A stretch of DNA of 41,293 nt from Chlorobiota bacterium (GTDB lineage: Bacteria > Bacteroidota > Bacteroidia > Bacteroidales > JAADGE01): positions 1 through 41,293 of the forward strand of contig JAADGE010000074.1 of the NCBI GenBank assembly GCA_013152535.1. The letters run 5' to 3'. Below the pieces are notes generated by a model, which made no database searches, was not told where the DNA came from, and saw only the letters and a list, made by a program, of their open reading frames with translations. The stretch's first letter is position 1; every line of letters starts with the position of its first letter. Both the position numbers and the translations under genes were made by a program. Shown piece by piece: positions 31,790 to 41,167 of the stretch.

Positions 31790-32416
31790 TTGAAAAAAAC
31801 ATTGCTTATATTTCTGTTATCATTTTTATTTATTGACAGTTATTCTCAAATAAATACTTTCGGCAATACTACCGAAATAAAAAAAGACTGGTTTTTTGCA
31901 CTTCGCTTAATACCGGATTTAAACGGCGGATTAATACAAACTGCAATTGTAAAAGAAAAAGATGACGGCAAATACGAAATATTATATACCCCAACTAATC
32001 AATGGTTAAGAGAAATTGTAGGGTTAGAAACATCAAAAGCGAATCCCGATAAAGAAAATCTTATAAAAAAATATAATGTTTTTGAAATTCCCGGAAATGT
32101 TAATAACGAATTTATTAATGATTATACAACAGACAAGTTAAAAGTAATAATTAATAATCTGTGGCGAATAAAATATTCAGAATATCCTTTTTATAATCCG
32201 GCTTTAAATCAAGAAAAAGGATGGGCAAAAAATCCTGATGATAAAATTACTTGGATGCCGTCAGAAAGTCAACTTCAACTCTTAAAACCATACGGAATAG
32301 AAAACCTAAGTGATTTTTTTATCGGTGAACATCTTTTTGATTTTTTAAAAGACGTTACAAACAGAGATTGGCAAAACAGATATATACAAAGTGCCGGCGT
32401 ATATCATCAAAATTAA
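31790..32416 (+). CDS. Exported hypothetical protein
   Basis: A 208-residue protein with a signal peptide (MKKTLLIFLLSFLFIDSYSQ) whose first codon is TTG (31790-31792), the only start that keeps the signal. The mature part is polar and rich in N, K and W, with segments DWFFALRLIPDLNGGLIQTA, VNNEFINDYTTDKLKVIINN and LWRIKYSEYPFYN. I do not recognise a family. It has no cysteine and no lipobox, so it is probably periplasmic or secreted. It lies between the divergent aminopeptidase operon and parA. No clear -7 box precedes it. Confidence 0.7.
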   Translation: MKKTLLIFLLSFLFIDSYSQINTFGNTTEIKKDWFFALRLIPDLNGGLIQTAIVKEKDDGKYEILYTPTNQWLREIVGLETSKANPDKENLIKKYNVFEIPGNVNNEFINDYTTDKLKVIINNLWRIKYSEYPFYNPALNQEKGWAKNPDDKITWMPSESQLQLLKPYGIENLSDFFIGEHLFDFLKDVTNRDWQNRYIQSAGVYHQN

Positions 32417-32490: not shown

Positions 32491-32498
32491 TATTTTTG
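32491..32498 (+). promoter_or_regulatory. -7 box of the parA operon
   Basis: TATTTTTG (TAnnTTTG), about 30 nt before the parA ATG at 32529. It lies downstream of the hypothetical gene's stop, so parA has its own promoter. Confidence 0.5.
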
Positions 32499-32528: not shown

Positions 32529-33296
32529 ATGTCAAAAGTCATTGCAATAGCAAATCAAAAAGGCGGAGTCGGAAAAACCACCACAGCTATAAATTTAGCA
32601 GCCAGTCTTGCTGTTCTTGAAAAAAAAGTTTTAATTGTTGATTTTGACCCGCAAGCAAATGCAACTTCAGGAATCGGGTTCGATTTAAAAGATATTGAAC
32701 ACAGCATATACGATTGTTTCATAGACGGAACTAAGCCCGAAGACGTCATTTTAAAAACAGAAACTCCCGGAATGGAAATAATTCCTTCTCATATTGATTT
32801 GGTAGGAGCAGAAATTGAAATGCTGGAAGAAGAAAACAGAGAATATATTTTAGATACTGTTGTAAAGAAAGTGAAAGACAAGTATGATTATGTTTTAATT
32901 GATTGTTCTCCTTCATTAGGACTTTTAACTCTGAATGCCTTAGCTGCTGCTGATTCTGTTATTATTCCGGTTCAATGTGAATATTTTGCATTGGAAGGTT
33001 TGGGAAAACTACTGAATACAATACAAATGATTCAAAAAAACATCAATAAAGAACTTGAAATTGAAGGATTCTTATTAACGATGTACGATGCTCGTGTTCG
33101 TTTATCAAATCACGTTGCAGCCGAAGTCAGAAAGCATTTTGAAAGTATGGTTTTTGATACCATTATACAACGAAATATTAAGCTGAGCGAAGCACCAAGT
33201 TACGGAATGCCCGCCATAATATATGATGCAAATTCAAAAGGCAGCATTAACTATTTAAATTTAGCAAGAGAACTTATTGAAAGGAACAAAAATTAG
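32529..33296 (+). CDS. parA: ParA/Soj chromosome-partitioning ATPase
   Basis: A 255-residue deviant-Walker ATPase: ANQKGGVGKTTTAINLAASL (K of KGGVGKTT), IVDFDPQANATSG and the Walker B region YVLIDCSPSLGLLTLNAL. It moves ParB-parS complexes during chromosome segregation. The ATG at 32529 is chosen; upstream in-frame sequence to 32391 overlaps the preceding gene and contains the promoter. parB follows after 6 bp. Confidence 0.95.
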   Translation: MSKVIAIANQKGGVGKTTTAINLAASLAVLEKKVLIVDFDPQANATSGIGFDLKDIEHSIYDCFIDGTKPEDVILKTETPGMEIIPSHIDLVGAEIEMLEEENREYILDTVVKKVKDKYDYVLIDCSPSLGLLTLNALAAADSVIIPVQCEYFALEGLGKLLNTIQMIQKNINKELEIEGFLLTMYDARVRLSNHVAAEVRKHFESMVFDTIIQRNIKLSEAPSYGMPAIIYDANSKGSINYLNLARELIERNKN

Positions 33297-33302
33297 AATA
33301 AT

Positions 33303-34196
33303 ATGGCAAAAAAAAGCCCTTTAGGAAAAGGTTTAGGAGCCTTAATTGATAATTCAAAATTTGAAACAAAACCCGTTGAAGAAGCAATATCCACAGGAGC
33401 TGTTGCTGAGATTGACATTGAAAATATCGAACTCAATCCGTTTCAACCGCGTGAGGATTTTAATACAGAATCGTTAAAAGAACTTACGGAATCTATAAAA
33501 CAACACGGTATTATTCAGCCGATTACAGTAAGAAAATTAAAAAACGGTAAGTTCCAGTTAATTTCCGGCGAACGACGATTAAGAGCTGTAAAAGACGCAG
33601 GATTAAAAAAAGTTATTGCCTTTGTAAGAAAAGCTGATGATACTGCCATGCTTGAAATGGCATTAATTGAAAATATCCAACGCGAAGATTTAAATGCCGT
33701 TGAAATTGCTGTTTCGTATCAACGTCTTATTGATGAATGTAATATTACACAAGACCAATTAGCAACCAAAGTATCAAAAAACAGAACAACAGTAACCAAT
33801 TATTTGCGACTCTTAAAACTTCCGGCTGAAATACAATCCGGTATTCAAAATAAGTTAATCACACAAGGACATGCAAAAGCATTAATAACTATTGAAGATG
33901 CAAAAAAGCAGGTTTCCGTTTATGAAAAAATTATTTCTGAAAAATTATCGGTAAGAGAAACAGAAAATATCATACGAGAAATTAATTTTCCCGTAAAAAA
34001 AGATATTAAAAAACCGGCAAAAAATAAGTTACCCGAAACTTACCTTACTCTTAAAAAAGATTTATCCGAAGTTTTAAACAGTAATGTAAACATCAAGAGA
34101 AATAATGCAGGAAGAGGAAGTATTTCCATTTCTTTTACATCAGACGAAGAATTTAATAAAATAAAAGAACTTCTTTCTCATATTAAACAGAAATAG
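33303..34196 (+). CDS. parB: ParB/Spo0J chromosome-partitioning protein
   Basis: A 297-residue parS-binding CTPase. The N-terminal KKSPLGKGLGALI is the ParA-stimulating peptide. The CTP-binding core has NPFQPREDF and GERRLRAVKDAG. ENIQREDLNAVEIAVSYQRL and the helix-turn-helix TKVSKNRTTVTNYLRLLKLP follow, then the C-terminal dimerisation domain. It is co-transcribed with parA. I found no convincing parS site in the window. Confidence 0.95.
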   Translation: MAKKSPLGKGLGALIDNSKFETKPVEEAISTGAVAEIDIENIELNPFQPREDFNTESLKELTESIKQHGIIQPITVRKLKNGKFQLISGERRLRAVKDAGLKKVIAFVRKADDTAMLEMALIENIQREDLNAVEIAVSYQRLIDECNITQDQLATKVSKNRTTVTNYLRLLKLPAEIQSGIQNKLITQGHAKALITIEDAKKQVSVYEKIISEKLSVRETENIIREINFPVKKDIKKPAKNKLPETYLTLKKDLSEVLNSNVNIKRNNAGRGSISISFTSDEEFNKIKELLSHIKQK

Positions 34197-34221
34197 TATT
34201 TTTTCTCAAATAAAATTAAAG

Positions 34222-34830
34222 ATGAAACAATTTGTTTTCATAAGTATTATTATTATTTCCTTTAACGGTACCGGATACAGTCAAAACGACTCGCTTAAAA
34301 CAAATAAGGATACTCTGATAATCAAAGGTGTAAAAGAAGTTGAAATAAATTCATCAATAAAAAAGAAGAAATCCGGAAGAGCAGCATTATTTTCAGCAAT
34401 TTTACCCGGAGCAGGGCAAGTTTATAACGGAAAATACTGGAAAGTGCCTATCGTTTATTCGGCTTTGGGTTCTGCCGCATTCTTTTTTCAATATAATAAT
34501 AAACTATACAAAAAATATCTTACCGGCTACCAACAAAGAATAGAACATGAAGCAGATTCGACTGTAGATGAAACGATTTTCAGCAAAGATATCGGTACTG
34601 ATGTTTTATTACAATATAAAAATTCTTCTCGCAGAAACCGAGATTTATCAGCTGTTATTATGTTAGCTGTTTACGGTTTAAATATTATTGACGCCGTTGT
34701 AGATGCAGAACTTTCTGATTTTGATGTAAGTGACGATTTATCATTAAAAATATCACCCGAAATAATTCCGCTTCACGGAAAAATAAAAAAAAACACAATA
34801 GGTCTTACTTTTTGTTTCAATTTTAAATAA
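34222..34830 (+). CDS. DUF5683 membrane protein
   Basis: A 202-residue protein with an N-terminal signal or anchor (MKQFVFISIIIISFNGTGYS). The DUF5683 core is GRAALFSAILPGAGQVYNGK followed by YWKVPIVYSALGSAAFFFQY, and a second hydrophobic stretch is SAVIMLAVYGLNIIDAVVDAELSDF. The family recurs between parB and mltD-like genes in Bacteroidota, but its function is unknown. It is 25 bp from parB and 1 bp from the next gene, so it belongs to one operon. The GAGQVYNG motif resembles TM2-like glycine hairpins that sit in membranes. Confidence 0.8.
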   Translation: MKQFVFISIIIISFNGTGYSQNDSLKTNKDTLIIKGVKEVEINSSIKKKKSGRAALFSAILPGAGQVYNGKYWKVPIVYSALGSAAFFFQYNNKLYKKYLTGYQQRIEHEADSTVDETIFSKDIGTDVLLQYKNSSRRNRDLSAVIMLAVYGLNIIDAVVDAELSDFDVSDDLSLKISPEIIPLHGKIKKNTIGLTFCFNFK

Positions 34831-34831
34831 T

Positions 34832-36388
34832 ATGAAAAATTTCTTTTTTACGATTATATTTTTATTTACTGCCTGTTTTATCGGACAAGCTCAAAAGACA
34901 AAAGATACAACCGATGAAAAGCTTGATGCTTTAACACAACAAAATCAATATTTAGATGAACTTGTTAATAACTGGTATGTTAAACAAAGTTTAACCGAGA
35001 ATGATCATACAAGCGTAAATACGTTTACAGATAAAACTCCGAAAATAATACCTGATTCTGTTTATATTAAACGATTATATAAGCTGCCGACTGTTGTTCC
35101 GATGACTTATAATAAAGTAGTTAAACAATGGATTCAATTTTACACTAAAAATACAGCCTCAAGAAGATATTTACTCGGAATTTCACAATATTATATGCCG
35201 ATTATCGAACAAATATTAGACAAATATAATTTGCCTTTAGAACTCGGTTATCTGCCGATTATCGAATCCGCACTAAATCCTCGTGCACGTTCACATTCAG
35301 GAGCAGTAGGTCTGTGGCAGTTTATGTACCCTACCGGAAAAATGTACGGCTTGGAAATTAATTCCTATGTTGATGAACGAATGGATGTTTTAAAATCTAC
35401 CGAAGCTGCAGCAAAATATCTGCGTGATATGTATAAAATTTTCGGGAACTGGACCTTATCTATTGCTGCGTATAACAGCGGTGCCGGAAATGTGAAGAAA
35501 GCAATTAAACGTTCCGGCGGAAAAACAAATTTCTGGGATATTTATCCCTATCTCCCTCGTGAAACAAGAGGTTATATTCCGGCATACATTGCAGCATTAT
35601 ATTCTATGAATTATTATAAAGAGCATAACATAATTCCGAAAAAAATTGATATGGATATGCTTACCGATACGGTAATGATTAAAAAGAAATTAAATCTTAA
35701 ACAAGTCGCCGAATATTTAAAAATAGATTTTGATAAACTTGCAACATTAAATCCTCAATACAAACGTAATATAATTCCCGGAAACGTAAAACCCTATCCT
35801 TTAAGATTACCTTTTGATAAAGTCAGTGATTTTTTAAATTCGGAAAATGAAATTTATAAATACAAAGACAGTATTTATTTAAACGACCAAGTTTCATTAA
35901 TTTCTCCGGCAAAAAGTAACCGTCCGTATAACAATTATAACTATTCGCCGCCGAGTACAAAACACAGAAAAAAATTATACTATACCGTAAAATCAGATGA
36001 TACATACAGTAATATTGCCGAATGGTACGATTGCTCCGTTAATGATTTAAAATATTGGAACAAAACTCGCAGCACACGATTACAAATAGGGCAAAAAATT
36101 GCCGTTTGGATTCCTGCAAAAAAATATGCTCACTACCAAAAAATAAACAAAATGACAATTGAGCAAAAAACAAACACAAATATTCCGACAATACACAAAA
36201 AACCTGTCGTAAAACCTGATAAGAATAAATATGTTGTTTACAAAATCAAATCCGGAGATAATCTTTGGACAGTTGCCAAAAAATTTGACGGAATTTCAGC
36301 AAATGACATTCAAAAAATCAACGGTTTCTCGGACGAAGATGTCAGAGACTTAAAAATAGGTCAGGAAATTATTGTAAAGAAAAAATAA
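34832..36388 (+). CDS. MltD-like lytic transglycosylase with two LysM domains
   Basis: A 518-residue exported muramidase. A signal peptide (MKNFFFTIIFLFTACFIGQA) precedes the SLT domain (about 110-260), with catalytic Glu145 in LPIIESALNP, SGAVGLWQFMYPTG and the substrate-cleft AAYNSGAGNVKKAI. Two LysM peptidoglycan-binding domains follow: about 382-428 (YYTVKSDDTYSNIAEWYDC) and about 467-516 (VYKIKSGDNLWTVAKKFDG). It cleaves glycan strands with formation of 1,6-anhydro-MurNAc. A cysteine in the signal region (TACF) suggests a lipoprotein is possible. It sits 1 bp after the DUF5683 gene and 18 bp before an SGNH hydrolase gene. Confidence 0.9.
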   Translation: MKNFFFTIIFLFTACFIGQAQKTKDTTDEKLDALTQQNQYLDELVNNWYVKQSLTENDHTSVNTFTDKTPKIIPDSVYIKRLYKLPTVVPMTYNKVVKQWIQFYTKNTASRRYLLGISQYYMPIIEQILDKYNLPLELGYLPIIESALNPRARSHSGAVGLWQFMYPTGKMYGLEINSYVDERMDVLKSTEAAAKYLRDMYKIFGNWTLSIAAYNSGAGNVKKAIKRSGGKTNFWDIYPYLPRETRGYIPAYIAALYSMNYYKEHNIIPKKIDMDMLTDTVMIKKKLNLKQVAEYLKIDFDKLATLNPQYKRNIIPGNVKPYPLRLPFDKVSDFLNSENEIYKYKDSIYLNDQVSLISPAKSNRPYNNYNYSPPSTKHRKKLYYTVKSDDTYSNIAEWYDCSVNDLKYWNKTRSTRLQIGQKIAVWIPAKKYAHYQKINKMTIEQKTNTNIPTIHKKPVVKPDKNKYVVYKIKSGDNLWTVAKKFDGISANDIQKINGFSDEDVRDLKIGQEIIVKKK

Positions 36389-36406
36389 CAGGGATATTTT
36401 ACTGCT

Positions 36407-37939
36407 ATGACTCCGAAAAAAGTTCTGATTTTTGTATTTTCCGCTCTTTTTATTCTGTTATTATTGTCTGTAGTTTTTCCTTCCGAAGGAATTAAAATAA
36501 CAGATAAATTTACCTTAAAATTTATAACTGTAGAAGACATTATAAATCCGCCGAAACAAGCAGAACCGGACATTTCAAACATTATAAACGGAACCGATAT
36601 TCAAGACGAAACAGATACTATTGTTTTTATTAAGGAAAACAAGAAAAAAAATCTTGATTCAGTTATGATTGACTCTCAATATGTTTATTACAAACCCATT
36701 CCGGTTAAAATTGATTCTGTTGTAAGACATATTGAATTTCCCGACAAAACACATTCAAGTTTAGATAAATTCTTTGCAATTCTTTCAAATATTAAAAATC
36801 AAAAAAGAATTGTACGAATAATGCACTATGGTGATTCTCAGATAGAAACAGACAGAATTACCGATTATTTTCGTTACAAATTACAATCCCGATTCGGCGG
36901 TGTCGGTCCCGGGCTTATTCCTGCAGTAAAAGCTTTCGATTTTAAATCACCTATGGTACAATCCGTTTCCGGAAACTGGAAACGTTACACGGTTTACGGA
37001 AGACGCGACACAATTGTAAAACACAATCACTATGGTATGTTGGGTAACTTCGCAAGATTTACTCCTATTATTAACGACACACTTCCGGATTCCTTACAAG
37101 TTTTTAATCAGGAAGAATTAATGCCGCATAAATTAATGAGTTATGCAAGCATTTCCGTTTCGCAATCTCCCTACTCTTTCAGACCTACCAAACATTTTAA
37201 AAGATGCAAAATGTTTTACGGTTACAATAAAACCGAGGTTAAACTAAAAACTTTTGCCGACGAACAACTAATTGATGAAAGCATACTGCCCCCTTCAAAC
37301 GATTATAAAACAAAAACTTGGAACTTTGAAACAACACCGCAAAACATAAGATTTGAATTTGAAGCCGAAGACAGTCCCGATATTTACGGCTTTTCACTTG
37401 AAGGATATTCCGGAATTAATGTTGATAACATTGCAATGCGAGGCAGCGGCGGCTTGTTTTTCACAAAAATGGACTTAAATATGCTCAGCAGTATGTACCG
37501 GCAATTAAATACCAAACTTCTGATTCTGCAATTCGGAGGGAATACGGTACCTAACGTCCGAAAAAGTTATAACTATTACAGAAAAGCATTTTCAAGACAA
37601 CTTCGCACACTTAAAAGAATTGCACCCGATCTTACTATAATGGTTATAGGATTGGCTGATATGTCGAAAAAAGAAGGCGACACATACATTACCTATCCGA
37701 ATGTTCCGTTGATACGTGATGCTTTAAAACAAGCAAGTTTTGAAAACAACTGTGCTTATTGGGATATGTATGAAGCTATGGGCGGTGAAAATTCAATGCC
37801 GAGTTGGGTTTTTTACAATCCGCCGTTGGGAGAAAAAGATTTTACGCATTTCACACCGCAAGGTGCCAGATACATTGCAAAAATGTTTTATAATGCTTTT
37901 ATGTATGAATATAACCGCTATTTGAGAAAGAAAAAGTAA
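36407..37939 (+). CDS. SGNH/GDSL-hydrolase-like protein 1, membrane anchored
   Basis: A 510-residue protein. A single N-terminal membrane helix (about 5-24) leaves the rest outside the membrane. The SGNH fold starts with RIMHYGDSQIETDR (nucleophile S144). The block III region is LLILQFGGNTVPN, where the usual GxND is GGN without the Asp. The last block is KDFTHFTPQGARY, with D478 and H481 as the catalytic pair. A beta-rich insert (about 200-330) may be a carbohydrate-binding or AlgX/AlgJ-like accessory region. It probably transfers or removes acetyl groups on a glycan, with the MBOAT protein encoded downstream as acetyl exporter. It is 18 bp after the transglycosylase gene. Confidence 0.75.
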   Translation: MTPKKVLIFVFSALFILLLLSVVFPSEGIKITDKFTLKFITVEDIINPPKQAEPDISNIINGTDIQDETDTIVFIKENKKKNLDSVMIDSQYVYYKPIPVKIDSVVRHIEFPDKTHSSLDKFFAILSNIKNQKRIVRIMHYGDSQIETDRITDYFRYKLQSRFGGVGPGLIPAVKAFDFKSPMVQSVSGNWKRYTVYGRRDTIVKHNHYGMLGNFARFTPIINDTLPDSLQVFNQEELMPHKLMSYASISVSQSPYSFRPTKHFKRCKMFYGYNKTEVKLKTFADEQLIDESILPPSNDYKTKTWNFETTPQNIRFEFEAEDSPDIYGFSLEGYSGINVDNIAMRGSGGLFFTKMDLNMLSSMYRQLNTKLLILQFGGNTVPNVRKSYNYYRKAFSRQLRTLKRIAPDLTIMVIGLADMSKKEGDTYITYPNVPLIRDALKQASFENNCAYWDMYEAMGGENSMPSWVFYNPPLGEKDFTHFTPQGARYIAKMFYNAFMYEYNRYLRKKK

Positions 37940-37985
37940 AAAACATACAAAATCCAATAGTGTTTAAAAATAGCAATTTAATTTT

Positions 37986-39224
37986 ATGCAAAAAATACGA
38001 CTCATAATATTTTTAACAATATTTTCTCAAAACCTGTTTGCACAAGATTACCCTTATACCGAATATCCTTATTATCATTATATCAGGTATGATAAAAATA
38101 AAATTTATTTCCCCGGCGACAGTTTGGCTTTTGATAATTTCAATAATAAACTTGATACATTAATATTAAAAGGCGAAGGGAAAATTAACATTGTACATTT
38201 CGGAGGTTCGCATATTCAGGCAGGCATTTATTCCGGAGTTGCAAGAAAAAAACTCCAAAACTTCTTTCCCGGACTAAACGGCGGAAGAGGAATGATTTTT
38301 CCCTACGGAATGTCAAAAACCTACACTCCGAAAAATTTTCGCATAAAATGGACCGGCAATTGGGAAACTTGTCGAAATGTCGAACATAAAAATTGCGAAC
38401 TCGGAATGCTCGGTATTGAAGCAACAACACACGACAGCATAGCAACAATTACGGTCATTCTAAACCCGAAATATCAAAAATACGAAACCGATATTATCAA
38501 AATTTTTCACGATACAGGCAAAAATTCATATAAAATAAAACTTTCTGCCGACAGCACAACTTATGACCTCACAGAATTCCCGGAAGACGGATACACCTTA
38601 ATTAAAACAAATGATTTTGTCTCAAACATAAAATTAGAACTTGTAAAAACTGATACAGTACAAAACCGATTTACCCTTTACGGTATTGATTTGGAAAACT
38701 CATTTTCCGGAATTGTTTATACCGATGCCGGAATTTCGGGAGCAAGTTTACCTTCATTTTTAAAATGCAATTTACTGGAAAAACAAATGTCTGTCGTCAA
38801 ACCCGACTTGGTAATTATTTCGTTGGGAACAAACGATACTTACGGTAAATCCTTTTCACCCGAAAGGTTCAAACTTCATTACATTAATTTTCTCAATAAA
38901 ATAAAAAAAGCAAACCCCGGTGTCGCAATCATTATGACCGTTCCGAACGATTGTTATTACCGACGAAGAGATCCGCTGCCGTTTACAAAAGATGCCGAAA
39001 AGGTAATTTTTGAACTCGCAAAAGAATACAACTGCGGAGTTTGGGATTTGTATGCCGTTATGGGCGGTTACAATTCCTCTTATTTATGGCACAAAGACAA
39101 ACTTATGCAAAACGACCTCATCCATTTCACAAAAAAAGGATACATTATAAAAGGAAACTTATTTTTTAACGCATTGATAAAAATTTATGACAATCATTTA
39201 TCTGAAAATATTTTAAACTTTTGA
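37986..39224 (+). CDS. SGNH/GDSL-hydrolase-like protein 2, secreted
   Basis: A 412-residue protein with a signal peptide (MQKIRLIIFLTIFSQNLFAQ). The SGNH motifs are INIVHFGGSHIQAG (nucleophile S75), the full block III VIISLGTNDTYG and the terminal NDLIHFTKKGY with D377 and H380. It shares architecture and spacing with the preceding gene (including a CGVWDLYAVMGG versus CAYWDMYEAMGG segment), so the two arose by duplication. This copy keeps the complete catalytic set. It is probably a periplasmic acetylesterase or acetyltransferase working with the MBOAT protein encoded 38 bp downstream. Confidence 0.8.
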   Translation: MQKIRLIIFLTIFSQNLFAQDYPYTEYPYYHYIRYDKNKIYFPGDSLAFDNFNNKLDTLILKGEGKINIVHFGGSHIQAGIYSGVARKKLQNFFPGLNGGRGMIFPYGMSKTYTPKNFRIKWTGNWETCRNVEHKNCELGMLGIEATTHDSIATITVILNPKYQKYETDIIKIFHDTGKNSYKIKLSADSTTYDLTEFPEDGYTLIKTNDFVSNIKLELVKTDTVQNRFTLYGIDLENSFSGIVYTDAGISGASLPSFLKCNLLEKQMSVVKPDLVIISLGTNDTYGKSFSPERFKLHYINFLNKIKKANPGVAIIMTVPNDCYYRRRDPLPFTKDAEKVIFELAKEYNCGVWDLYAVMGGYNSSYLWHKDKLMQNDLIHFTKKGYIIKGNLFFNALIKIYDNHLSENILNF

Positions 39225-39262
39225 ATTTAACCAACTATTTTTATTTTCGCTGACGTATATTT

Positions 39263-40780
39263 ATGCAAGACTTTATTAAAAATATATTTTTATTCAATAA
39301 AGAACACCCGCTTATTTTTACGCGATTGTGGTTTTGGTTGTTTTTTGCCGTAATTTATGCCCTTTATACAATAATTTACAAAAAAGAAAAACCCAGAAAC
39401 GCATACCTTTTTCTTATAAGCGTTTTCTTCTACTATAAAACAAGCGGAATTTTCTTTTTGCTTCTTTTATTTTCGATTGCGGTGGGTTACCTTACCGGAA
39501 AAATTATTTATAAATCGAAAAACGAACTTAAACGCAAACTTTTTGTTGCATTGAGTGTTTCAATAAATTTATCAGTTTTAGTTTACTACAAATATTCGGT
39601 TTTTTTTACCGAAAGTTTTAATTATCTTTTCGGAATTCATCTCCAACCGGTTGATTTACTTGCAAAATGGACAAACCAATTTGCCGGAACACATTTTACC
39701 ATCGATAAAATTATTCTGCCGGTAGGAATTTCTTTTTTTACTTTTCAAACCATCAGTTATACAATTGATATTTACAGAAAAAAAGTAGAACCCGTAAAAA
39801 ACATAATAGATTTCGGCTTTTTTGTATCTTTTTTCCCGCAATTGGTTGCAGGTCCGATTGTTCGTGCTTCCGATTTTATTCCGCAACTTTACAAAAAATT
39901 TAATATTACAAAAGCCGAATTTGGTTTTGCCGTATTTATGATACTAAACGGATTAATCAAGAAACTTGTAATTGCCGATTACATTGCCGTAAATTTTGTC
40001 GATCGTGTTTTCAGTAATCCTACAACCTACGGTGGTTTTGAGAACTTAATGGCACTTTACGGATATTCGATACAAGTTTATTCCGATTTTTCCGGTTACA
40101 CCGATGTTGCCATAGGAGTTGCACTTTTAATGGGTTTCAGATTACCCGTAAATTTCAACTCGCCGTATAAAGCCCTGCATACCGGCGAATTTTGGAAACG
40201 CTGGCATATTTCTCTTTCATCTTGGCTGAAAGATTATTTATATATACCGCTCGGAGGAAACAGAAAAGGCAAAACCCGAACCAACATAAATCTTATGCTC
40301 ACAATGTTACTCGGCGGATTATGGCACGGTGCAAGCTGGCAATTTGTTATTTGGGGCGGATTAAACGGAATAGGCTTGGTTGTTTATAAATACTGGCGAA
40401 AAATAAGTCCTTTTAAAGACAGTAAACATTGGGCTGTGCGTTTTTATGCAATTTTTCTTACGTTTAATTTTATTACAGCAACCAGAATTTGGTTTCGCAG
40501 CGAAAGTATGGAAGCCGCAAACGGAATTATGCACCAAATAACAAGTGCTTTTGATTTTTCTAAAATCGGAGAAATAATTATTGCTTACAAAAATATTTTT
40601 GCTTTAATGTTATTGGCAATGATAATTCATTGGTTGCCCGTAAAAATTAAAGATGCTTATAAACAAGCATTTATAAACTTTCCTCAATGGGCTAAACTTG
40701 CAACAGTTGCTGTTGCCGTTATTGTGATATGGCAAGCAAGAACTGCCGATTTACAACCGTTTATTTATTTTCAGTTTTAA
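39263..40780 (+). CDS. MBOAT-family O-acyltransferase (AlgI/PatA-like)
   Basis: A 505-residue polytopic membrane protein with about 11-12 membrane segments. Family motifs are PVGISFFTFQTISYTIDIYR (about 153-172), PQLVAGPIVRASDF, YSDFSGYTDVAIGVA, FWKRWHISLSSWL with H315, and GGLWHGASWQFVIWGG with the invariant H355. Relatives (AlgI, DltB, PatA) move an acyl group across the inner membrane so that a periplasmic SGNH protein can transfer it to alginate, teichoic acid or peptidoglycan. The two SGNH genes upstream fit this two-component scheme. The glycan acceptor is not stated by the sequence; the MltD gene in the same run makes peptidoglycan a reasonable guess. Confidence 0.9.
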   Translation: MQDFIKNIFLFNKEHPLIFTRLWFWLFFAVIYALYTIIYKKEKPRNAYLFLISVFFYYKTSGIFFLLLLFSIAVGYLTGKIIYKSKNELKRKLFVALSVSINLSVLVYYKYSVFFTESFNYLFGIHLQPVDLLAKWTNQFAGTHFTIDKIILPVGISFFTFQTISYTIDIYRKKVEPVKNIIDFGFFVSFFPQLVAGPIVRASDFIPQLYKKFNITKAEFGFAVFMILNGLIKKLVIADYIAVNFVDRVFSNPTTYGGFENLMALYGYSIQVYSDFSGYTDVAIGVALLMGFRLPVNFNSPYKALHTGEFWKRWHISLSSWLKDYLYIPLGGNRKGKTRTNINLMLTMLLGGLWHGASWQFVIWGGLNGIGLVVYKYWRKISPFKDSKHWAVRFYAIFLTFNFITATRIWFRSESMEAANGIMHQITSAFDFSKIGEIIIAYKNIFALMLLAMIIHWLPVKIKDAYKQAFINFPQWAKLATVAVAVIVIWQARTADLQPFIYFQF

Positions 40781-40814: not shown

Positions 40815-40822
40815 TAACTTTG
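40815..40822 (+). promoter_or_regulatory. -7 box of clpS
   Basis: TAACTTTG (TAnnTTTG), about 26 nt before the ATG at 40848. It shows clpS is transcribed separately from the acyltransferase run. Confidence 0.55.
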
Positions 40823-40847: not shown

Positions 40848-41129
40848 ATGAGTAACAAAGAAAAAATACAAAATAAAGAAAACGAAACAACCGATGTTTT
40901 AAATTCTAAGAATAAGTTTTTGATTCTTTATAATGATGATTACCATACTTTCGATTATGTTATTGATGCCTTAATGGACATTTGCAAGCACCAAGAAGAA
41001 CAAGCAGTTCAATGCACATATTTAATCCATTACAAAGGAAAAGCCGATGTAAAAAAAGGCAGCTACGGTTTTCTTAAACCAATGATGACACAGCTTCGCA
41101 AAAAAGATTTAAAAGCAGCTATTGAATAA
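40848..41129 (+). CDS. clpS: ClpS, Clp protease adaptor
   Basis: A 93-residue N-end-rule adaptor that delivers substrates with bulky N-terminal residues to ClpAP/ClpCP. The core has FLILYNDDYHTFDYVIDAL (N of NDDYHTF), HQEEQAVQCTYLIHYKG and the closing GSYGFLKPMMTQLRKKDLKA. It keeps the histidine (YLIHYKG) where the E. coli substrate pocket has His66. Length is slightly shorter than E. coli ClpS at the N-terminus. The last codons and stop lie in a 44-bp palindrome that acts as terminator. Confidence 0.92.
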   Translation: MSNKEKIQNKENETTDVLNSKNKFLILYNDDYHTFDYVIDALMDICKHQEEQAVQCTYLIHYKGKADVKKGSYGFLKPMMTQLRKKDLKAAIE

Positions 41130-41167
41130 ACAAAACGGACGGGTTAACCCGTCCGTTTTGTTTATTC
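41124..41167. terminator. 44-bp perfect palindrome overlapping the clpS stop
   Basis: The two 22-bp halves are exact reverse complements; the core is AAAACGGACGGGTT/AACCCGTCCGTTTT and the stop TAA at 41127-41129 is in the left arm. The right arm ends in TTTTGTTTATTC. It is a strong intrinsic terminator on both strands. Confidence 0.85.

Follow-up and report, generated by a model that had tools for sequence, protein, structure and literature searches.

Probable peptidoglycan O-acetylation genes joined to a lytic transglycosylase behind parAB in a Bacteroidales genome

Overview of the locus

Genes for chromosome partition and probable genes for glycan acetylation stand in one line in contig JAADGE010000074.1 of a Chlorobiota bacterium (assembly GCA_013152535.1, order Bacteroidales), and this arrangement raises the questions of which glycan is acetylated, which of the encoded proteins transfers the acetyl group and what part, if any, the partition genes play. 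The stretch that we analysed, called the window here, comprises 41,293 nucleotides; its source genome of 3.3 Mb in 92 contigs is 98% complete. The open reading frame (ORF) list and Pfam matches place seven genes in line on the + strand, from 32529 to 40780: parA, parB, a DUF5683 gene, an MltD-type lytic transglycosylase (LT) gene, two genes for SGNH proteins (SGNH1 and SGNH2) and one for an MBOAT acyltransferase. The gaps separating the last four genes are 18, 46 and 38 bp; this spacing, on the same strand as parA-parB-DUF5683-mltD, had been reported in an original prediction for this locus, and every coordinate holds.

We consider it probable that this row is a peptidoglycan O-acetylation and de-O-acetylation (OAP) cluster joined to an LT, with the following mechanism. 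Using acetyl-CoA as donor, the MBOAT would acetylate the Tyr of its C-terminal FIYFQF on the periplasmic side; from there SGNH1, anchored in the membrane, would take the acetyl to O6 of N-acetylmuramic acid (MurNAc), the soluble SGNH2 would strip it from MurNAc again, and cleavage by the MltD-type LT would be confined to acetyl-free sites. By combining the writing and removal of acetyl with gating of the LT, the cluster would set the place and time of glycan-strand cutting. What the analysis shows is the gene order and its conservation, the protein families, the predicted folds and the retention of catalytic residues; we infer the substrate, the division of roles between the SGNH proteins and the common transcript. 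Peptidoglycan as the substrate is well supported by the Ape1 fold predicted for SGNH1 and SGNH2 alike and by the resemblance of the trio of SGNH1, SGNH2 and MBOAT genes to a published OAP cluster. An OAP cluster comprises a pat gene with at least one adjacent ape gene, and this is what the window contains.

These results bear out part of the original prediction. It had recognised in the MBOAT and SGNH genes a layout for O-acetylation, to which the Ape1 folds and the likeness to the published OAP cluster now lend substance, and its proposal that peptidoglycan is acetylated proved well grounded for the same two reasons, the cluster in question being that of 2005 described below. Its suggestion that O-acetylation bears on lytic transglycosylases also agrees with published work, in the parts available to us, where O-acetylation blocks LTs and where mutual enhancement is described for Ape1 and an LT; the LT in this row fits both. 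Our analysis refines that first reading in that one of the SGNH proteins, which had not been told apart, is probably an acetyl-removing esterase.

Fold and active sites of SGNH1 and SGNH2

AlphaFold models of the two proteins, each built with 39 sequences, had mean predicted local distance difference test (pLDDT) values of 85.6 for SGNH1 and 93.0 for SGNH2. Against Neisseria Ape1 (4k3u) the SGNH1 model gave Z 38.9 over 345 residues (root mean square deviation 2.7) and the SGNH2 model Z 39.7 over 343 residues (2.2). Across this structure and the Campylobacter Ape1 structures 8gld and 8gkd, both models scored Z 34.6-39.7 over 343-362 residues, and the next-best structures for either model reached only about 17. 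The contrast with PatB is equally marked, as SGNH1 scored 34.6-38.9 against Ape1 and 14.8 (8tlb) and 14.2 (7trr) against PatB, over 188-196 residues; these PatB scores rank among those of generic SGNH esterases, and SGNH1 does not have the PatB fold by this measure. Sequence searches of the PDB likewise matched Ape1 with both proteins, as did profiles, SGNH2 at 1.3e-38 (profile positions 39-402) and SGNH1 at 7.2e-29 (best stretch 284-478).

The catalytic Ser, Asn and Asp-x-x-His are kept in both proteins. Ser144, Gly346, Asn379, Asp478 and His481 of SGNH1 were invariant in 39 aligned sequences, as were Ser75, Asn283, Asp377 and His380 of SGNH2; Gly252 of SGNH2 was nearly so, and was invariant in a smaller alignment of 14. 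About 200 residues separate Ser75 from Asn283, and SGNH2 matches nearly all of Ape1. Models and alignments point to an Ape1 fold, that is an SGNH domain with an inserted beta-rich domain, and to the Ape1 catalytic set in SGNH2, and SGNH1 is predicted to share both fold and catalytic set.

The two proteins differ at their N-termini and at block I. The SGNH1 model has a helix at residues 3-23, a low-confidence linker of about 95 residues and an SGNH domain from about residue 118, and the start of SGNH2 looks, by eye, like a signal peptide. Of 170 SGNH1 entries, 168 had a hydrophobic 19-mer near the N-terminus, as had 70 of the 127 SGNH2 entries; an anchor and a signal peptide look alike by this measure. 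In block I, SGNH1 has GDSQIE, departing from Ape1, and SGNH2 shares the Ser-His of Ape1. We counted GDSQ(I/L)E in 137 of 170 SGNH1 entries and GxSH(I/V/L)Q in 80 of 127 SGNH2 entries, reading the motif at whichever GDS or GGS came first in a frame, by which some SGNH2 rows were misplaced.

The MBOAT protein

In an alignment of 14 homologues, His315 and His355 of the MBOAT core did not vary, and neither did the last eight residues, QPFIYFQF. FxYxxF was found in 124 of 129 MBOAT entries (at least 500 bits and near SGNH genes, with some genomes entered twice). In PatA the Tyr of this C-terminal motif has been shown to carry acetyl, according to the parts of the 2025 PatAB mechanism paper available to us. 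Having both the core His and the C-terminal motif in its sequence, the protein would be an MBOAT of PatA type. Its best PDB sequence relatives were DltB, with PatA not among the matches, and its best NCBIfam match was again DltB, at 159 of the 375 bits of that family's cut-off. It resembles the DltB/DltX/DltD system for D-alanylation in its MBOAT fold and shuttle Tyr, but differs in carrying the motif within the MBOAT itself and in falling under the DltB cut-off. The genome has a second MBOAT (L055:2271-5672), beside an OmpA/PD40/TPR protein; the three neighbours of this gene that we scanned had no GDSL family match.

Which SGNH protein transfers acetyl

In the 2025 PatAB mechanism paper, as far as its text was available, PatB has Ser or Asn in place of the block II Gly and an N-terminal membrane helix with a long linker before its SGNH domain. 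We found no such protein within the cluster, and a GDSL lipase family search of the genome returned three proteins, two of them SGNH1 and SGNH2, no search aimed at PatB elsewhere having been made. If the MBOAT is PatA-like, one of the Ape1-fold proteins should then be its partner.

We examined 149 genomes of the same order, the window's included, of which 80 matched the SGNH1 search; surroundings were counted in 76 of these, after exclusion of the window itself and of G036, G146 and G156 (no SGNH1 by score). In ten of the 76 (G023, G027, G050, G058, G109, G127, G132, G144, G155 and G163) SGNH1 stands beside the MBOAT and no SGNH2 was found in the genome, in a search with a single sequence that may miss distant SGNH2; G050, scored as lacking SGNH2, has a stretch of about 104 residues that partially matches it on a different contig. 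Because these genomes pair SGNH1 and MBOAT without SGNH2, SGNH1 looks like the needed partner. The PatB-like helix and linker of SGNH1 and its departure from Ape1 in block I point the same way. If peptidoglycan is the substrate, we consider it slightly more likely than not that SGNH1 does the job of PatB and SGNH2 that of the esterase. The broader proposal, that the Bacteroidota writer is an anchored Ape1-fold protein and not PatB, and that writer and eraser sisters with an LT form a transferable wall-turnover module joined to the partition operon in many families, is tentative and in our view falls somewhat short of an even chance.

Several observations weigh against the proposed cluster and its mechanism. 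The absence of a PatB-type protein from the cluster is one, and SGNH1 retains the block II Gly (Gly346) in place of the Ser or Asn of PatB; because this Gly is kept, the active site of SGNH1 looks like that of an esterase. Four genomes (G029, G035, G038 and G151) have SGNH2 on the MBOAT contig and SGNH1 elsewhere, opposite to the proposed division of roles, and the search found no SGNH1 in two more (G036 and G146) that possess SGNH2 and an MBOAT. Neither an LT directly upstream nor a parB within 9 kb was present at 41 of the 76 SGNH1 loci, and in G015, from the family of the window's genome, SGNH1 and SGNH2 are split between two contigs, and LT, parB and MBOAT are absent from the surroundings of both. 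Finally, fold and gene order leave the substrate undemonstrated.

G029, G035, G038 and G151 also speak for a reversal of roles, with SGNH2 as the acetyltransferase acting with the MBOAT and the anchored SGNH1 as an esterase acting with the LT: in two of them, G029 and G038, the SGNH1 on the other contig adjoins an LT. So do the gene orders SGNH1 then SGNH2 then MBOAT, in 46 of 76 loci, and an LT immediately before SGNH1, in 30. We regard this reversal as rather unlikely, given the ten genomes that have SGNH1 next to the MBOAT but yielded no SGNH2, the closer profile match of SGNH2 to Ape1 together with its Ape1-like Ser-His at the start of block I, and the restriction of a PatB-like helix and linker to SGNH1.

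Comparison with known systems and the choice of substrate

The closest described arrangement is ape1b-ape1c-pat in B. thetaiotaomicron, B. fragilis and P. gingivalis (Weadge et al. 2005, PMC1199599). In the passages of that paper available to us, O-acetylated peptidoglycan was measured in two Bacteroides at 27.0% and 69.4%. In that cluster, as in the window, pat comes after two Ape1-type SGNH genes, and the phylum is the same; in contrast, the window trio follows parAB-DUF5683-mltD, and both Bacteroides have a putative cation-efflux gene upstream. According to that description, about 100 residues following motif I are missing from Ape1c; SGNH2 of the window retains this segment. From gene order, fold and phylum we infer that the window trio is orthologous to the 2005 OAP genes, compared here by their description.

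The patA-patB-ape1 genes of Neisseria and Campylobacter, in the portions of PMC12148441 and PMC5077204 on which we drew, share with the window an MBOAT with FxYxxF and an Ape1-fold protein, and the N-terminal helix and long linker of SGNH1 are PatB-like. The window differs in having no PatB-type protein, in that its SGNH genes precede the MBOAT, and in the Ape1 fold, inserted domain included, of its anchored protein. In Neisseria meningitidis, the LtgA-Ape1 system (PMC7083599, in the part available) likewise pairs an LT with an Ape1 esterase; there, the LT is of Slt70 type and the interplay was seen with purified proteins, whereas the window has an MltD-type LT and the pairing is one of gene order alone.

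MBOAT-SGNH pairs act on many glycans, according to the published material available to us, and the genes of the window could accordingly acetylate an exopolysaccharide or other secreted glycan, with the adjacency of the LT a matter of history only. The DltB-like and not PatA-like matches of the MBOAT in the PDB, the presence of a second MBOAT in the genome and the 41 of 76 SGNH1 loci with neither LT nor parB close by are all in keeping with such a role. We nonetheless consider it improbable, as SGNH1 and SGNH2 both match Ape1 structures at scores far above those of other SGNH esterases, more than one LT subgroup occurs before SGNH1, Bacteroides carrying the described cluster had measurable acetate on their peptidoglycan, and our ORF and Pfam survey found no glycan synthesis genes from 32.5 to 41.1 kb.

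Peptidoglycan acetylation thus being preferred, what is known is an acetylation trio resembling the 2005 cluster, and what is unexpected is the type of the protein that likely transfers the acetyl. The published passages at hand make no statement as to which Ape1-type protein, if either, transfers acetyl in Bacteroides. Among titles and abstract beginnings in the one open-access library searched, we found nothing on these genes in Bacteroidetes, Bacteroidota, Bacteroides or Porphyromonas besides Weadge et al. 2005, nothing linking peptidoglycan O-acetylation, parB and lytic transglycosylase, and, at the level of listings, nothing on DUF5683 beyond one paper on nematode receptors; the main texts of a 2018 review and of the 2025 PatAB mechanism paper contain no word beginning with 'Bacteroid'. 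The window genes make this question directly testable: SGNH1 and SGNH2 are the transferase candidates, and the LT is the enzyme whose access would be controlled.

Conservation of the gene order

The original prediction had proposed conservation of the order in related genomes as a check, and the order was conserved in part. An LT lay directly upstream of SGNH1 in 30 of the 76 genomes and parB within 9 kb upstream in 21, from 18 families; the association failed in the 41 loci with neither, and at the other 5 parB was not assessable and no LT was in view. In these counts G046 and G047, with an LT about 1.1 kb upstream and one gene between, were scored as having no LT, G075, with parB about 15 kb away, as having no parB, and G110 was counted once (C122 locus, the second locus L093 being dropped). 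Downstream of SGNH1 we found SGNH2 then MBOAT in 46 loci, MBOAT alone in 11, SGNH2 alone in 7 and neither in 12, with 4 of the 76 loci cut within 1.5 kb downstream. SGNH1 and the MBOAT tend to occur together: counting as strong an MBOAT match whose best E is at most 1e-90, 73 of all 149 genomes had both, 4 only SGNH1, 6 only the strong MBOAT and 66 neither, these four counts being made by eye, and the Fisher test on them ignoring relatedness.

Within the same genus SGNH1 was seen in 12 genomes, always with an LT before it; one more genome of the genus, 77% complete, gave no match to SGNH2. Elsewhere in the family G020 keeps the order, G018 keeps it from the LT onward, and the SGNH2 match is missing in four further genomes. 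Among the named loci, which are the best 80 of 474, the full order from parAB to MBOAT recurs, and in 22 the LT before SGNH1 scores under 400 bits; the records with the trio behind such a lower-scoring LT include Draconibacterium, Maribellus and several Flavobacteriales. In a tree of the LTs, those under 400 bits fell mostly outside the par-linked ones. The tree was made by a quick method and is unrooted with long branches; 13 near-duplicate or broken loci were left out, rows under 350 amino acids were unused, and some rows labelled as LT without parB merely end at a contig edge. The two main context labels were clustered on it, the observed value being reached in 0 of 500 shuffles; the tree supports this clustering only, and not a number of LT-OAP joinings.

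For ten named genomes we looked up LT and parB elsewhere and fetched eight parB regions. In Draconibacterium aestuarii, Maribellus luteus, Tangfeifania and UBA5219 the whole parAB-DUF5683-LT block is present away from SGNH1; three of these have a different LT ahead of the trio, and SGNH1 of Tangfeifania has none. The remaining four regions have parA, parB and DUF5683 without an LT, and in G071 and G106 such an LT-less block exists while the LT accompanies the trio instead. LT and acetylation genes thus co-occur with or without parAB. The gene order, neither local nor universal, is real and conserved in part, its components are known ones, and its recurrence in distant genomes places it beyond chance. 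The repeated LT-OAP order is genetic support for the idea that O-acetylation serves to gate lytic transglycosylases.

No common upstream gene emerged from a Pfam search at 16 of the 44 LT-less loci: the families were unrelated and only DUF4837 recurred, in 2, with two of the 16 neighbours having no match at E 0.01 and three only matches under the cut-off. In two genomes (L061:7712-8800 and L062:10524-11552) a DUF4837 gene stands between LT and SGNH1. Two tandem LT genes occupy the space between DUF5683 and SGNH1 at L038, L065 and L108. In two same-genus genomes unrelated genes, named by eye, separate SGNH1 from SGNH2 (L025:7436-8791 and L033:5667-6989), their products being a 451-amino-acid protein and an ATPase-like protein; L033:8362-8966 holds two small ORFs that resemble, by eye, a toxin-antitoxin pair.

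Transcript signals and the partition genes

We searched for TAnnTTTG, which we take to be the Bacteroidota-type -7 promoter consensus. After the copy upstream of parA, no further match occurs on the + strand between 32499 and 40593; the next is at 40594, within the MBOAT gene, followed by one at 40815, ahead of clpS. Two results weigh against a parA promoter: the motif is not enriched (76 in the window against 74.5 in shuffles), and TTTG is absent 18-22 nt before the parA copy, leaving the full Bacteroides-type promoter unfound there. A sigma-70 scan gave no signal (35 found, 40.7 in shuffles). On the + strand from 31.7 to 41.3 kb, the sole terminator-like hairpin of 20 pairs is at 41124-41167, all other matches having 5-8 pairs and lying within genes or within that hairpin. 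A single message from parA to MBOAT is plausible.

That ParAB and wall acetylation are co-regulated, with wall cutting following chromosome segregation, seems to us very unlikely. The single strand and tight gaps, the parB within 9 kb of SGNH1 at 21 loci in 18 families and the long interval free of TAnnTTTG on the + strand speak for such a link; but a shared transcript by itself shows no regulation, 50 of the 76 loci have no such parB neighbour seen or assessable, the LT being absent, cut off or on its own (41 with neither neighbour, 6 with LT and without parB, 3 lacking an LT with parB not assessable), and in three genomes the OAP genes stand behind another LT with parAB-DUF5683-LT elsewhere. 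The link to the cell cycle drawn in the original prediction is thus unsupported, with 41 of 76 loci lacking LT and parB neighbours and 4 of 10 genomes holding a separate par-LT block; because those 41 sampled loci have neither gene close by, we set cell-cycle control aside as unproven.

Features of the region

The best NCBIfam match of the LT was murein transglycosylase D (1.7e-60, under the cut-off); the remaining assignments are given in Table 1.

Table 1. Positions of genes and candidate signals in the window
Feature	Coordinates	Strand	Basis or remark
parA, partition ATPase	32529..33296	+	Pfam AAA_31/ParA 1.2e-72; ATG read at 32529
parB	33303..34196	+	Pfam HTH_ParB 4e-36, ParB_N 4.4e-34
DUF5683 protein	34222..34830	+	Pfam 6.1e-49
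MltD-type LT, SLT and two LysM, 518 aa	34832..36388	+	Pfam SLT 2.1e-27, LysM 5.4e-22
SGNH1, 510 aa, proposed PatB-equivalent acetyltransferase	36407..37939	+	Pfam Lipase_GDSL_2 below cut-off; Ape1-fold model
SGNH2, 412 aa, proposed peptidoglycan O-acetylesterase	37986..39224	+	Pfam Lipase_GDSL_2 above cut-off; Ape1-fold model
MBOAT, putative PatA type, 505 aa, C-terminal FIYFQF	39263..40780	+	Pfam MBOAT 3.5e-30
clpS	40848-41129		67 bp after MBOAT; own TAnnTTTG 25 nt upstream; strong hairpin 3'
TAnnTTTG, candidate promoter (-7 motif)	32491..32498	+	30 nt before parA start
Candidate terminator, 20-pair hairpin then T-rich tail, after clpS	41124..41167	+	

Among the relatives' loci examined, clpS follows the MBOAT gene at L025 only. 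Upstream of the row, a 208-amino-acid protein encoded at 31790-32416 has no Pfam family above the cut-off; a profile of it found 9 ORFs, and it directly precedes parA in same-genus genomes.

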